Part shown: positions 7,858-46,090 of the stretch, piece by piece
Layout of the letters: every line of letters starts with the position of its first letter
Position numbering within the stretch: the first letter of the stretch is position 1
Source: a virus
Length of the DNA stretch: 46,090 nt
Direction: 5' to 3' (one strand)
Virus record (IMG/VR): IMGVR_UViG_3300005468_000005
Coordinates: 1 to 46,090 of that record
Made by a program: the position numbers and the translations under genes
Notes under the pieces: model-generated
Told to the model about the DNA's origin: nothing
Seen by the model: only the letters and a program-made list of their open reading frames with translations
The model's database searches: none

Positions 7858-7942
7858 TGGGGGCTTGACGGAAAGGGCTGTTACATGTAGCTTGGAGTCA
7901 GGTCGACCGGGTTGCAGCTCGGAGGCCCCGGAGGTCCCGCAC

Positions 7943-8479
7943 ATGACACACTCGCCCCTCGCTGGCCTGAGCGGCAAGGCGCTGCTCAAGTCCCTCCCGC
8001 GTGAGATCCGCGGCGTAACCGCGAAGAGCAACCCTCGCGCCTACGCGAACAAGGCCGCGTATGCGCTCGTCACCCGCGCCGACGTGGACGCGCCAGAGCT
8101 CTGGCGCGACGTGGCCGACGCGATCTCGCAGGCACAAGGTCGCTCTCACCGGCTAGGCCGAAACCCCGCTCACGCGGGGTCTGGGAGTGTTGCTCCCACT
8201 GATGAGGCCAGTCGCCTAAGAGGTACACACATGAGCGCCAAGGTTGCCATGAGCACCTTGCACCTAACCCCGTTGGAGCTTGCCACCCTCCACGACGCCT
8301 GCGTCTACACCGCAGACAACGCCGCCGGGCACCCGGAGGCAATGCGGTTGGTGGAGGAACTCCACTCCCGCATCTGCTCCACCCTCAAGGACACCGAAGC
8401 CGGCGCGCAGGCTAACGCTGAGATCCAGCGGATACTCAGCCAGCCCACGCCCACTAAGTCCCTCTACCTCAGCAACTAG
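7943..8479 (+). CDS. ORF with ribozyme inside: 178-aa fusion or two separate products
   Basis: ATG at 7943 has GGAGG 8 nt upstream. Codons 1-70 (LSGKALLKSLPREI, then YANKAAYALVTRADVDAPELW) read as a compact helical protein. The frame then runs without a stop through a hammerhead ribozyme (8156-8209, translated as a nondescript linker) into a second start at 8231. Uncleaved RNA would encode 178 residues. RNA cut after 8181 would leave the upstream message with no stop codon. Function of either half is unknown. Open frame further upstream (7484 on) is judged accidental because its composition is Arg/Gly/Cys-rich and it traverses palindromes. Confidence 0.6.
   Translation: MTHSPLAGLSGKALLKSLPREIRGVTAKSNPRAYANKAAYALVTRADVDAPELWRDVADAISQAQGRSHRLGRNPAHAGSGSVAPTDEASRLRGTHMSAKVAMSTLHLTPLELATLHDACVYTADNAAGHPEAMRLVEELHSRICSTLKDTEAGAQANAEIQRILSQPTPTKSLYLSN
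8156..8209 (+). ncRNA. Type II hammerhead self-cleaving ribozyme
   Basis: All core positions of the hammerhead consensus are present in type II order. The open-ended stem II is GGCC (8156-8159) with GGCC (8206-8209). The core GAAA is at 8160-8163. Stem III pairs A8163-C8169 with G8174-T8180 (7 bp, UCAC loop). The cleavage triplet GUC ends at 8181. Stem I pairs UGGGAG (8182-8187) with CUCCCA (8193-8198), UGUUG loop. The core CUGAUGA is at 8199-8205. Cleavage is predicted between 8181 and 8182, giving a downstream RNA that begins with stem I and reaches an SD and ATG 49 nt later. Hammerheads are known from phage genomes in earlier surveys; activity here is inferred. Confidence 0.85.
8231..8479 (+). 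CDS. 82-aa protein translated downstream of the ribozyme
   Basis: ATG 8231 has AAGAGG 7 nt upstream, placed just 3' of the hammerhead. The product (MSAKVAMSTLHLTPLELATL, then ATLHDACVYTADNAAGHPEAM) is helical, hydrophilic and of unknown family. It is in the same frame as the 7943 start, so it is either an independent product of the cleaved or uncleaved message, or the C-terminal half of a fusion. The separate SD favours independent translation. Confidence 0.6.
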   Translation: MSAKVAMSTLHLTPLELATLHDACVYTADNAAGHPEAMRLVEELHSRICSTLKDTEAGAQANAEIQRILSQPTPTKSLYLSN

Positions 8480-8536: not shown

Positions 8537-8779
8537 GTGAGCGGAGGCCGTCGCCACAAACGTAACTCCCCTGGGCGTAAGGCGTGGCGCCGGGATCGCG
8601 CCGTGATCCGGCAGAAGCGCCTCGATGCCGCCATTACTCAGCTCGACACCGATCTCGCCTCTAGCGAGTACGAGTACACCGAGACTAAGCTCGCGCTAGG
8701 CGGAGGCCGAGCCGTTACCCGCCCCCTTGCCCATACCATCCACCGACGCCCGCTTGAAGGGAGGCGAAACCCCATCTAG
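8537..8779 (+). CDS. Small basic early protein
   Basis: 80 residues from GTG 8537 (SD TAGGAG upstream). The N-terminus is very basic (GGRRHKRNSPGRKAWRRDRA), then an acidic helix (AAITQLDTDLASSEYEYTET), then a basic tail. It could bind nucleic acid. It is the last gene before a strong terminator. A start at 8495 would run through the stem-loop and is less likely. Confidence 0.55.
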   Translation: MSGGRRHKRNSPGRKAWRRDRAVIRQKRLDAAITQLDTDLASSEYEYTETKLALGGGRAVTRPLAHTIHRRPLEGRRNPI

Positions 8780-8792
8780 CCCCGGCAACCAC

Positions 8793-8828
8793 GGGAGCTT
8801 CCGCCTCACGCGGAGGCTCCCCCTTTTT
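8793..8828 (+). terminator. Intrinsic terminator of the first early segment
   Basis: GGGAGCTTCCGC (8793-8804) pairs with GCGGAGGCTCCC (8810-8821), 12 bp with one G-U pair and a CTCAC loop, followed by CCTTTTT. A textbook Rho-independent terminator closing the 4605-8779 unit. Confidence 0.85.
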
Positions 8829-41544: not shown

Positions 41545-44500
41545 TAGGGTCCCGTCCCTTGCCCCGGCGGAGGCGTGCCGAGTTCGGCATTGGCGACCGG
41601 CTGGGCCTCACCGACCAGCTTCTCGGTGCCCGCGGCTTCACTGCCCCCGCCGATGATCTCGGCGGCGCGGATGGCGATTTGGTGGCGGTGGAAAAGGCCG
41701 TAGAGGATGCCTTGGGGGGAGGACAGCTCCCAGACCTCCATGCTCTTACGGAACTTGGCCAGCTCGGGATGGGTCTTGAGAAAGGCGGTCTTGGCCCGAG
41801 TATCGACGTTTTCCTCGTAGTCGTTGTAAAGGGTGTTGAGGCGGTTCATATCCAGGCCCAAAGACAGCGCCTGGGCCTGTTGCTCGTGGTCGTAGCGAGT
41901 GACGATGGAGTGGTAGAGGCGGGCCACGTGGGAGTGGATCAGGCGCTGCTTCTGGTAGACATCAAAGGCGTGGCGGTCCTTCTCGCTGAGGTGGCTGAGG
42001 AGCTTGTCCTGCTCCTGACGCAGCGCGCCGAAGTCGATGGTGCCGTCGGCGCGGCGGGCGCCGCCCTTACCCACGGGGGTGTCGTAGATGTGCTCGTACT
42101 GGAAGAAGGTGCCCATAGCCCCGCTCATCGGCCCGGGGTCGCCCTCATACATCTGGGACAAGTAGGCGTGCTCGGTGTTGAGGTTGGTGTGGTACTGGTT
42201 GAGCCAGTCCCAGGGGTGGGAGTTGGGTCCCGACTGGGAGGCGAACTCAGCGTCTAGGGCGTCCTGGTCGAGGCGCAGTTGCCGGAGCGATTCCTCGTTC
42301 TTGTTGCGCAAGTCGTCGCTGATGACCGACCCCGGCTGGGCCTGCTGGTGGGGCACGTGGTACCAGGGCACCCGGGAGCCGAGCATGGTGCTGATGACGG
42401 AGATGGCCAGTCCGGGGGGGGTGGCCTTGGCGACGATGTGGGGCAGCCGGGTCCCGGCCAGAGGGCCCCACTCCTTACCCAAGGCGTCATTGGTCCAGGG
42501 GTTCTCGCCCTTCAGCGCTTGCAGCCGCTGCATCGCCGACAGCTGCTGGCCCAAGAAGGAGAAGTCAGCCAGGGCCTGGCCGATCTGGGCGGGGCCGCCG
42601 GGATGACCATGGCGGTCGATGAGGTGGATGGAGTTGTCGAGCACGGAGCGGTAGAAATCGATGTTGCCCAGGGCGAAAACGGAGGAGAAGACGGGGTTGG
42701 ACTTAGCCGCCAGCTCCCGCTCGCTCTCCAGGATGCGGTCGGCGATTGGCCCCTCGGGGCCGCCGATACCGGTGCGGACCTCGCCAAAGAGCTCGGGGAA
42801 GAAGAGGCGCTCATAGTCGGCCAGCTGGTTGGAGGCAAAGGGGCTATCGACGGTTTTTCTACCCCCCGTCTGGGGATCGTTGGGAACCAGATTGGAGAGC
42901 TCCAGACGGCCTTGGTTGCCGGGGGCGTTCTGCCACTGGGGATGGCCCGCGGTCATCAGGTTGATGGCGTTGCCGATGCCGTGGTGGGCGATCATGAAGG
43001 CGGCTGCGGTACTGAGCTCCTGCTTGAGCATGTAGTGCTGCAAGGCAGGGTTGTGACCCAACTCGCGCTTACGGTAGAGACCGGCGTAGATCTGGGGGAA
43101 GGTGGTCTGCCAGGAAGGGGCGAGGAAGCCGCGACGGAGCTGGCGGAAGAGGGCGGCGTTCTTATCCCAGTGGGCGATGTGGCCAACCCAGGCGTTGCTG
43201 CGCTTGCCGGCCAGGATGCGGGCGTCGGCGTAGGGCATGCCCGGCACCTGCATCGCCTTGTGCTTCTCGATGGAGTGGGCGGCGGTGGCCAGGTTGTTGA
43301 CGATCCCATCCCAGAGCACGTCCTGCTGCCAGTGGTAGAACTGGCGGCCGGGGCCGGTGATGACCTTGCCGACCTTGACCAGGGGGTCGTAGAGGTGGGC
43401 GGCGGGGGCGATGCCGCTGGTGTCGTAGCTCAGGTAGTTGCTGATCGGGCGGTCATCGTTCAGCGCCAGGCTCCAGGCATCCATCATCTCGGGGAGCTCG
43501 CGCTTGGCCTTGTTGTACATGACCACGCCATCATTGGCGGCGTCAATCTTGGCCCAGTACTTCTCCAGCTCCGGATTCCGCGGCAAGGGGGATGTCTCTC
43601 CCACCAGCTGACCCACGGTTTCGTCATAGGCTCGGTCAGTCCCCCCGAGCCGGGTGTAGTCCCCCCGTAGATACCCCGGGATCTCTTGGAGGTTGGTCAG
43701 GGTAAAGGGGATGGCACGCTTGACCTCGTTGGCCATATGGAAGGGAAAGAGGAAGGTAACCCCACGAGCGCCGACGTTGGCGGTCTTATCCAGGGCCCGG
43801 AGGCGGTCGTTTTCGGGTACGCGGAGGGCGCCATTGACCCAGTCGGCGAACTGCTTGTGGACCACCCAGTCGCCAAAGCCCCGGTTCTCAATGGCCTTGA
43901 ACTGATCGGCGATGCCGCGGAGGTCGTTGTCTAGGTTCTTGCCCTTCTTGTAGGCCAGGTTTATAAGTCGCCAGATGTCGTCTGAGCCCTTGACTTCCAT
44001 CTGCTGGTTACTCAAGAAGTTCATGGCCTTGGTGATCTTGAGATCGCGCATCCGCCCGGGCATGGTGGCGGCAAAGATGCGCAGCGCATTGGTTTCGTAC
44101 TGCTGGTACTCGCTCTTGGCGACCTGACCGGCGAGGGTTTTGGCGTCTTCATGTTGGCCGGAAGCAATCAGGGCCTGGATCTGCTTATGAACGGGGCCGT
44201 ACTTGTCCTGGATCAGGCGGTCGAACTCATAGTCTTCGGCGTAGACATCGACCATGGGGGGAAAGCGGGGGCCCCGGCCCAGCCAGAGCTGAGCCTGCTT
44301 TTCTTCGCGGAGGTCAGACTGCACCAGCTGCTCGGCGGCCCGAGCCCAGTCTTCGTAGAAGGCGCGGAGCTCATGCGGGCGCATCTTCTGTAGCGGTAGT
44401 CCCGCCGCTTCAGCAGCATGAGCCTCCTCCCGCCATTTCTCCGCGTCCCAGGTATCCCGGTAGGGGTCAAAGGCATCGCTTGGAGTCTTGCTGCTGAGCG

Positions 44501-46090
44501 CCTCGTTGAGCTCTTTCTTGGTGTACTCGGGGTGGGTTTTGAGGAAGTTACGGCGACTGGCCAGGCTCGCCGCCAGGCTGGTCTGGGGGCGCGGCTCATG
44601 GGCGACGGCGACGGCCATCAAATGGCGGGCAAACTGCTCCGCGCGCTGCGTCTGGGACTTATTTAGATCGCCTATGGTGTCGTGCTGGCGCATGAAGGCG
44701 AGCTCACCTTCGGGGGAGACCTGCAGGGTTTCGGTCATGTGGTGCTTGTAGGTGCGGGCGGCGCCGGCGGCGTCCAGGGGGGCGCCCTCCTCGCCCTTGA
44801 CCGAGATGCGGGGGACGTAGTTACCCCGGAGTCCGCTGAGCAACTCGGCGTTATGGGCCTCCTCGCCCCAGGTCCCCATCAGGCCCCGGAACTGATCGAC
44901 CAAAAGCTTCTCATGGGGGCCCATGGCGTCGTAGATGTGCTCGTCTTCCCAGCCTTTGGTGATCTGGTTCCAGTTGATCTTGCCCAGCCCCGCCGCCTCC
45001 AGCTGCTTTTCGTAGTTTTGGATACTGGCCAAGAAGTCGGAGTGGACCAGGGCGTCAGCTTCCGAAGGGCCCATGATCGAGGCCAGGCCGCCGCCCAAGG
45101 GATTGTCGGGGGAGGCCATAGGGTGGTAGCGGATCTGGGTGCCGTAGACCTGGCCGAAGGTGCCCCACATCTTGTGGGCGGCGTCCCTAAGCCCCTCGTG
45201 CTCGGGCAGGTTTTGGATATGGACGTGGGGATCGACGTAGCCGCGCTCGGTGGGGTCGAAGCGGACGATCTCCATGGTGGGGCCAAACCAGCGGGTGATA
45301 TCAGCGCGGTGCTTGATGATCTGCTCGCTTTGCTTGACGGTGATGGTGCCGGCCATGGCGCGGTCGAAGATCTCGCTATTCCAGTCACTGACGCCCACCT
45401 TTTTCATGAAGCGCAGGCGCTCGCGGGCGTCCTTGGGGGCGAGCTTGGGGGGGGCGAAGGCGTCTTCAAAGGCGCCGGCCTTGCCGGGCTTGACGATGGT
45501 TTTGTGAATCCCGGCGGGCTGTAAATCCTGGAGGCTGCGGCCAAAGCCGCTGGGGTCGAGGTGGGGTTCCACGGGCAACTCCGGGGGGGCGCCGCCAGGG
45601 TGGCGGAGCCCTTCGACCACCGGCTCGTTGATGTCAGTGAGGTTCTTGACAAAGGGCATCAACGAGGCCAGGAACTTGCCCTTGTGGGTCATCTCCCCAA
45701 AGATGGCCAGGGTTCCAAGCGCGTGCAGACCCATGCGGGCATCCAGGCCCAGGTCGAGTAGGGCCTGGGGATGGCCAGCGGTATAGCCCACGTCCTGCAT
45801 CAGGTGCTTGGGGGCGTTGTGGGTTTGGAAGTAGTCGCCCAGCTTCTTGGGATCGTTGGGCATATCGGCCATGAAGGTGGCGGGGAAGACGCCGGGGATG
45901 AAGTTGGCGGCAAAAGTGCCGGCGCCGTGGATCACGTCCTGGATGCCCTGGGTGTTTTTGTTCCAGGTCCAGGCGCTATCGTGGGCCCACTGCAGGTATT
46001 TGCCGGCGGGGGAGTTCAGGAAGCTTGGGTCGTGGAGGCGAATCCAAGACATCCGGGCGGTGTACTCGGCTTCGCTGTAGGCCCGGGCCT
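41544..46090 (-). CDS. Large ejection-type virion protein, main part (continues from base 655 through base 1)
   Basis: Together with 1..655 this is about 1,693 residues. The full frame starts at ATG 655 and crosses the contig ends. It contains long helical stretches, the FPATFMADMPNDPKKLGDYF and YVPRIS regions (the latter near residue 600 of the joined protein), and an acidic/Gln-rich end. Very large multi-domain virion proteins next to the portal are typical of DNA-ejection proteins in short-tailed phages; no lytic transglycosylase or peptidase motif is recognisable. It ends TAATG at the 328-residue gene. Confidence 0.75.
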   Translation of the reverse strand, partial: ARAYSEAEYTARMSWIRLHDPSFLNSPAGKYLQWAHDSAWTWNKNTQGIQDVIHGAGTFAANFIPGVFPATFMADMPNDPKKLGDYFQTHNAPKHLMQDVGYTAGHPQALLDLGLDARMGLHALGTLAIFGEMTHKGKFLASLMPFVKNLTDINEPVVEGLRHPGGAPPELPVEPHLDPSGFGRSLQDLQPAGIHKTIVKPGKAGAFEDAFAPPKLAPKDARERLRFMKKVGVSDWNSEIFDRAMAGTITVKQSEQIIKHRADITRWFGPTMEIVRFDPTERGYVDPHVHIQNLPEHEGLRDAAHKMWGTFGQVYGTQIRYHPMASPDNPLGGGLASIMGPSEADALVHSDFLASIQNYEKQLEAAGLGKINWNQITKGWEDEHIYDAMGPHEKLLVDQFRGLMGTWGEEAHNAELLSGLRGNYVPRISVKGEEGAPLDAAGAARTYKHHMTETLQVSPEGELAFMRQHDTIGDLNKSQTQRAEQFARHLMAVAVAHEPRPQTSLAASLASRRNFLKTHPEYTKKELNEALSSKTPSDAFDPYRDTWDAEKWREEAHAAEAAGLPLQKMRPHELRAFYEDWARAAEQLVQSDLREEKQAQLWLGRGPRFPPMVDVYAEDYEFDRLIQDKYGPVHKQIQALIASGQHEDAKTLAGQVAKSEYQQYETNALRIFAATMPGRMRDLKITKAMNFLSNQQMEVKGSDDIWRLINLAYKKGKNLDNDLRGIADQFKAIENRGFGDWVVHKQFADWVNGALRVPENDRLRALDKTANVGARGVTFLFPFHMANEVKRAIPFTLTNLQEIPGYLRGDYTRLGGTDRAYDETVGQLVGETSPLPRNPELEKYWAKIDAANDGVVMYNKAKRELPEMMDAWSLALNDDRPISNYLSYDTSGIAPAAHLYDPLVKVGKVITGPGRQFYHWQQDVLWDGIVNNLATAAHSIEKHKAMQVPGMPYADARILAGKRSNAWVGHIAHWDKNAALFRQLRRGFLAPSWQTTFPQIYAGLYRKRELGHNPALQHYMLKQELSTAAAFMIAHHGIGNAINLMTAGHPQWQNAPGNQGRLELSNLVPNDPQTGGRKTVDSPFASNQLADYERLFFPELFGEVRTGIGGPEGPIADRILESERELAAKSNPVFSSVFALGNIDFYRSVLDNSIHLIDRHGHPGGPAQIGQALADFSFLGQQLSAMQRLQALKGENPWTNDALGKEWGPLAGTRLPHIVAKATPPGLAISVISTMLGSRVPWYHVPHQQAQPGSVISDDLRNKNEESLRQLRLDQDALDAEFASQSGPNSHPWDWLNQYHTNLNTEHAYLSQMYEGDPGPMSGAMGTFFQYEHIYDTPVGKGGARRADGTIDFGALRQEQDKLLSHLSEKDRHAFDVYQKQRLIHSHVARLYHSIVTRYDHEQQAQALSLGLDMNRLNTLYNDYEENVDTRAKTAFLKTHPELAKFRKSMEVWELSSPQGILYGLFHRHQIAIRAAEIIGGGSEAAGTEKLVGEAQPVANAELGTPPPGQGTGP
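45971..46090. repeat. Terminal redundancy, right copy
   Basis: Exact copy of bases 1-120. Removing one copy gives a unique circle of about 45,970 bp. Confidence 0.95.

Follow-up and report, generated by a model that had tools for sequence, protein, structure and literature searches.

A type II hammerhead ribozyme between small phage genes as a probable intercistronic processing site

The window, which is the whole 46,090-nt stretch of DNA analysed here and an entire IMG/VR virus record (IMGVR_UViG_3300005468_000005), carries on its + strand a type II hammerhead ribozyme (8156-8209) with a whole core and three stems, as seen from the sequence, its fold, shuffles and a covariance model denoted as R1. 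Judging from sequence comparison, it is a genuine hammerhead that probably serves as an intercistronic processing site, with cleavage predicted between C8181 (C17) and U8182 by established hammerhead chemistry. Phage type II hammerheads are an already known kind (Perreault et al. 2011, PMC3088659; Rfam RF02276), and the idea of processing is not new, because it was proposed in 2011 that tandem type II copies divide long phage transcripts into mRNAs of gene length (PMC3088659). This idea, which predates our analysis, is now sharper and easier to test. While the window copy alone adds little, the value of the comparison lies in a replicated placement rule, in which the ribozyme is found between a stop codon and the Shine-Dalgarno (SD) sequence of the next gene, and in the hammerhead arrays of cultured phages. 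The first-pass annotation of this DNA had assigned no biological use to the ribozyme, and our comparison points to intercistronic mRNA processing.

Structure of the hammerhead

Each hammerhead element that the first-pass annotation had named within 8156-8209 was found where it had been placed. The invariant core GAAA/GUH/CUGAUGA is in correct order in the window copy, based on the sequence and the alignment to R1, and is surrounded by three helices, where loops close stems I and III and stem II is open. Stem II consists of 4 bp between the 5' strand GGCC (8156-8159) and its partner GGCC (8206-8209), with a C-G pair closing it beside the core. In the conserved GAAA (8160-8163), A8163 is paired with U8180, which places an A-U pair at the base of stem III; together with the pairing of 8164-8169 with 8174-8179 in the hairpin CCCCGC-UCAC-GCGGGG (8164-8179), stem III has seven pairs. 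The GUC (8179-8181) precedes the 17-nt stem I hairpin UGGGAG-UGUUG-CUCCCA (8182-8198), in which 8182-8187 pair with 8193-8198 in six pairs plus one U-G wobble, and the conserved CUGAUGA (8199-8205) follows. The base on the 5' side of stem II is an A (8155), the same base as in 111 of 115 related copies, and A8210 on the 3' side is conserved in 89 of the 115. The hammerhead structure is exactly the minimum-energy fold of 8145-8222 (z -2.69).

Two features of the stem II region complicate this structure. Stem II can be extended past a bulged A to 9 bp in the window copy, which could slow product release, and an extension of at least three further pairs is rare among the relatives (4/115). Furthermore, folding revealed a competing hairpin, CGGC-UAG-GCCG (8150-8160), that would mask the 5' strand of stem II and has TAG in its loop. 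The earlier description of the ribozyme as perfect is fair for the core and stems, whereas in a longer transcript of 241 nt the competition from this hairpin leaves stem II with a formation probability of only ~0.15 in a simple thermodynamic model, which ignores tertiary contacts and co-transcriptional folding. This low probability, and the U at the third loop position of loop I where A is commoner, would agree with a regulated or relic ribozyme that the competing hairpin keeps mostly off in the native transcript and that acts rarely or when triggered. However, the fold behind that probability leaves out the contacts and folding order mentioned above, all core bases and stems are intact, and the loop GUGUUGC is identical in a copy from another phage (locus L141). 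We regard a regulated or relic ribozyme as improbable.

The class with a 4-bp stem II

Two pattern scans of viral contigs yielded 223 further non-redundant type II hammerheads. Among the GGCC-type matches found with the core only, 105 of 107 also formed stems I and III with at least four pairs though these were not required, in comparison with 2.3% for such a stem in a random 15-mer as control. The 64 phage hammerheads used to construct R1 belong to the 4-bp stem II class and do not include the window copy. In its alignment 97.9% of the pair cells were paired and covariation was strong, where part of the pairing is ascertainment, since the stems had been a requirement for inclusion. R1 scored the window copy at 70.2 bits (E 2.6e-17) and, with filters off, nothing else in the window above 11.1 bits. 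Rfam gave Hammerhead_II (RF02276) as the top and sole match up to E 1, which is the family anticipated when a search with the Rfam hammerhead models had been suggested as a check, but the score of 29 bits is under the gathering score of 37. The assignment to type II is thus supported by the core, the topology, the independent covariance model and the sub-threshold Rfam match. A single hammerhead was found in the genome by R1 and Rfam, which argues against two such copies acting together in excision or in the formation of a circle.

The hammerhead copies split into two classes by stem II length and by a pseudoknot between loop I and the 3' tail, which was described in 2011 (PMC3088659). A stem II of 3-4 bp is typical (212 of 224 copies). 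When stem II is at most 3 bp, a loop I/3'-tail Watson-Crick match of at least 4 was present in 65% of copies vs 25% with mismatched tails, while the corresponding values for a stem II of at least 4 bp were 13% and 10%. Of 149 copies with a 4-bp stem II, 122 have a stem-loop I of 17 nt; in this group, most have a loop I of the form GU-N-A/U-N-G-C, with A commoner than U, and an A flanking stem II on both sides. The window copy belongs to this 4-bp class in terms of its 4-bp stem II, 17-nt stem-loop I, loop GUGUUGC and flanking A8155 and A8210. A pseudoknot between its loop I and 3' tail was considered and rejected, as the longest match is two Watson-Crick pairs. In loop I and the flanking A's, the window copy agrees with what is conserved among copies of the non-pseudoknot class, where a tertiary contact is putative.

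The low Rfam score of the window copy is explained by this class, because the Rfam model misses most of the 4-bp non-pseudoknot copies in the loci tested. Among 20 short loci, a single copy of the 4-bp class (L172) reached the cut-off, whereas many pseudoknot copies did; by locus, L030, L074 and L141 had no copy above it and L013 had three. The comparison therefore reveals that, in these loci, most of one subclass goes unseen by the model. Blast also matched the ribozyme to Pseudomonas, Escherichia and Vibrio phages, but in the one locus tested for each, the model found no hammerhead. As a separate observation, the metagenomic phage contigs L013, L022, L119 and L239 contain five to eight hammerheads apiece, and the stems within L013 are alike, with compensating changes between them that would suggest a spread of copies inside the genome.

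The hammerhead motif is small, and rare random matches are expected in large databases, which would be the ground for taking the window copy as a chance match without function. However, shuffles gave an expectation of 0.01 for the core pattern, which is present once in the window, the E-value comes from an independent model, the class-specific loop and flanking bases agree though they were unused in the search, and the placement, except for the frame of the TAG, fits the rule described below. A chance match is extremely unlikely.

Gene context and the placement rule

The terminase, portal and major head protein are encoded on the - strand of the window, which bears out the phage origin claimed by the first-pass annotation. 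The ribozyme is on the + strand, together with a helicase-loader-like gene, an AAA+ ATPase gene and a ParB-like gene, while the head and packaging genes are on the opposite strand; as such, the proposal that the ribozyme belongs to an early transcript receives indirect support. No DNA relatives of the phage were present in the phage collection. The search for relatives of its terminase gave no match, and that with the AAA+ protein gave none in viral contigs and only distant AAA+ relatives, with the best in Mycobacterium and Gordonia phages.

Around the ribozyme, a coding signal was present in a single frame from ATG 7943 to ~8130, was absent over the ribozyme, and came back from ATG 8231 to 8479. 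Upstream is a small gene A (7943-8153, +), in which the SD GGAGG precedes ATG 7943 and which has a weak match to phrog_2707. Downstream is a small gene B (8231-8479, +; 82 aa) of no known family, which starts 49 nt past the cut and is preceded by the SD AAGAGG (8218-8223), 7 nt before the start codon. Gene C (8537-8779, +; 80 aa, no known family) has the SD AGGAG and a GTG start, and is followed by a terminator-like hairpin of 12 bp and then CCTTTTT (8793-8821, +), which would be the end of a small transcription unit. A candidate promoter, TTGACG-N17-TAGCTT (7865-7893, +), was located by eye, and a consensus promoter scan found no promoter. Based on the coding signal and the positions of gene C and the terminator-like hairpin, these genes form a short unit in which the ribozyme stands between gene A and the pair B and C.

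The end of gene A requires attention. A TAG (8154-8156, +) overlaps the first base of stem II, at +1, which is the modal place of the upstream stop codon in related copies, but it is one base off the upstream coding frame. That frame stays open for 178 codons (7943-8479), traverses the ribozyme and joins coding segments A and B, so that the ribozyme could lie inside one continuous gene, where cleavage would leave a stop-less upstream RNA and determine whether a fusion protein or only the downstream protein is made. Against this, the coding signal drops to -0.74 bits per codon between 8153 and 8230 and recovers at ATG 8231, where gene B starts behind an SD of its own. In addition, an open frame through the cut is almost never seen in other phages, and the coding score increases from 11.9 to 23.7 bits when a single frame change is allowed near 8132, after which the frame ends at the TAG in its usual place. 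We therefore rejected a single fused gene as the main reading and consider it very unlikely. The out-of-frame TAG is most likely due to a one-base assembly error or a real mutation, and programmed frameshifting or a genuine gene fusion may be alternatives. The joined A and B frame had no relatives in viral contigs or phages.

The related copies define where such ribozymes are placed. Among the 217 copies having enough flank, with an upstream co-oriented ORF counted when open for at least 180 nt, 153 (71%) had the stop codon at -4 to +2 of the stem II 5' edge, compared with 3% at random same-strand sites and 4% antisense. The stop codons at such offsets terminate long ORFs unusually often; at +1, 41 were observed vs 7.7 expected. 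On the other side, a start codon preceded by an SD was found within 45 nt downstream in 160 of 204 copies (78%) vs 12.5% at random. The rule was replicated in a held-out set, obtained by scanning anew for another closing sequence, where the stop codon abutted stem II in 107 of 149 copies (72%; random 3%, antisense 3/149), a start with SD lay within 45 nt in 111 of 146 (76%; random 11%), and a long ORF ending before the cut was lacking in one copy of the 149. The median distances are 27 nt from stop to cut and 53.5 nt from cut to start, and those in the window are 25 and 49 nt. The window copy follows the start rule, with ATG 8231 on the same strand 21 nt after stem II. These figures refer to exact cores, which the scans require, to metagenomic contigs and phylogenetically non-independent copies, and to genes taken as open frames. 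As far as checked, the order of stop codon, ribozyme, SD and start is new as a placement rule; in the open literature, with most subscription papers outside its scope, we found no papers that describe the stop-codon rule or report ribozymes for phage R4.

Considering that the upstream stop codon adjoins stem II, a terminating ribosome would cover the 5' strand of stem II and GAAA and block folding, and only transcripts without upstream translation would be cut. Cleavage gated in this manner would report translation and clear the untranslated message. The closeness of the stop codon to stem II, no more than 7 nt away in 71-72% of copies, is consistent with such gating, as is the TAG in the loop of the 8150-8160 hairpin, which a ribosome there would disturb. 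However, the ribosome footprint argument is itself inferential, the TAG of the window is outside the coding frame, and compact phage gene spacing alone could account for part of the same abutment. Gating by translation in the window copy is thus unlikely, though less so than a regulated or relic ribozyme. Extended to phages in general, type II hammerheads would be translation-sensitive punctuation between a stop codon and the next SD, to which we assign a similarly small probability. If this were true, each small early gene would get its own hairpin-capped message with a lifetime tied to translation, where the terminating ribosome blocks the hammerhead and a bare transcript gets cut.

Predicted processing and related systems

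Returning to intercistronic processing, cleavage, product separation and effects on stability and translation are what we infer from the observed structure, placement and recurrence. A transcript of ~0.9 kb would span genes A, B and C, and the ribozyme would fold in the gap between A and B and cut after C8181. Owing to the type II topology, the upstream RNA would terminate in stem III and the downstream RNA would begin with stem I, joined in most copies by just 3-4 bp of stem II, and both hairpins are retained in folds of the two predicted cleavage products. The upstream mRNA would have a short tail that ends ~25 nt past the position of the stop codon, where the stem III hairpin would carry a 2',3'-cyclic phosphate, while the downstream mRNA would have a 5'-OH on the stem I hairpin, a 49-nt leader and its own SD. 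Since the short stem II is the sole link between the products, they should separate. The likely effect would be that translation of B is uncoupled from that of A and that the structured ends influence the stability of each message. The competing hairpin, the extendable stem II, the single genomic copy and the out-of-frame stop codon count against a processing role, as do the compact spacing of phage genes, which could account for part of the abutment, and the inactivity of some consensus hammerheads in earlier tests, described below.

Several other small self-cleaving RNAs, namely twister, pistol, hatchet and HDV-like theta ribozymes (theta: PMC10879173), are found in phage genomes. Their folds differ from that of the window hammerhead, and none of the four was detected in the window with Rfam. 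The type II hammerheads of Perreault et al. (2011) share with the window copy the core, the topology, the phage setting and small neighbour genes of changing identity; in contrast, the window copy combines a stem II of 4 bp with a stem-loop I of 17 nt, lacks the pseudoknot between loop I and the 3' tail, is below the Rfam cut-off and is the sole copy in its genome. In that work, cleavage in vitro and in E. coli was seen for tandem copies flanking prophage genes, and 4 of the 18 consensus hammerheads tested were inactive (PMC3088659). In the case of HHphage of the haloviruses HF1 and HF2, a hammerhead likewise lies shortly before an early gene start, at 13 nt there and at 21 nt (from stem II) in the window, and the early mRNA 5' end maps to the predicted cut to within 3 nt (PMC3088659). 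Unlike the window copy, whose core is consensus, HHphage has a core of variant type, and its host is archaeal. A 2017 review regarded the role of prokaryotic hammerheads as an open question (PMC6155905).

Cultured phages of laboratory Streptomyces strains provide a setting in which this role is directly testable, with up to a dozen copies per genome. In the stretches scanned, R1 found 8 hammerheads in R4 (L341, NC_019414), 12 in Paedore (L342, MH001460) and 11 in Celia (L343, MN062705), and Rfam added one in R4 and one in Paedore. Like the window copy, they are type II hammerheads in gaps between small genes, on the gene strand and with short leaders. All are on the - strand, which is that of the surrounding right-arm genes, mostly with one per intergenic gap, and, according to the annotation of the records, the leaders from stem II to the next start are mostly 22-28 nt and many stop codons abut the ribozyme. 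They differ in that the 8-12 copies per genome mostly reach the Rfam cut-off, whereas the window copy is single and of the 4-bp class. Separately, the R4 CDSs gp60.1, gp67.1, gp72, gp75.1 and gp81 (L341:40691-40774, 43054-43146, 44231-44761, 46002-46103 and 48132-48422) overlap hammerheads on the same strand, and these calls or their starts may be wrong.
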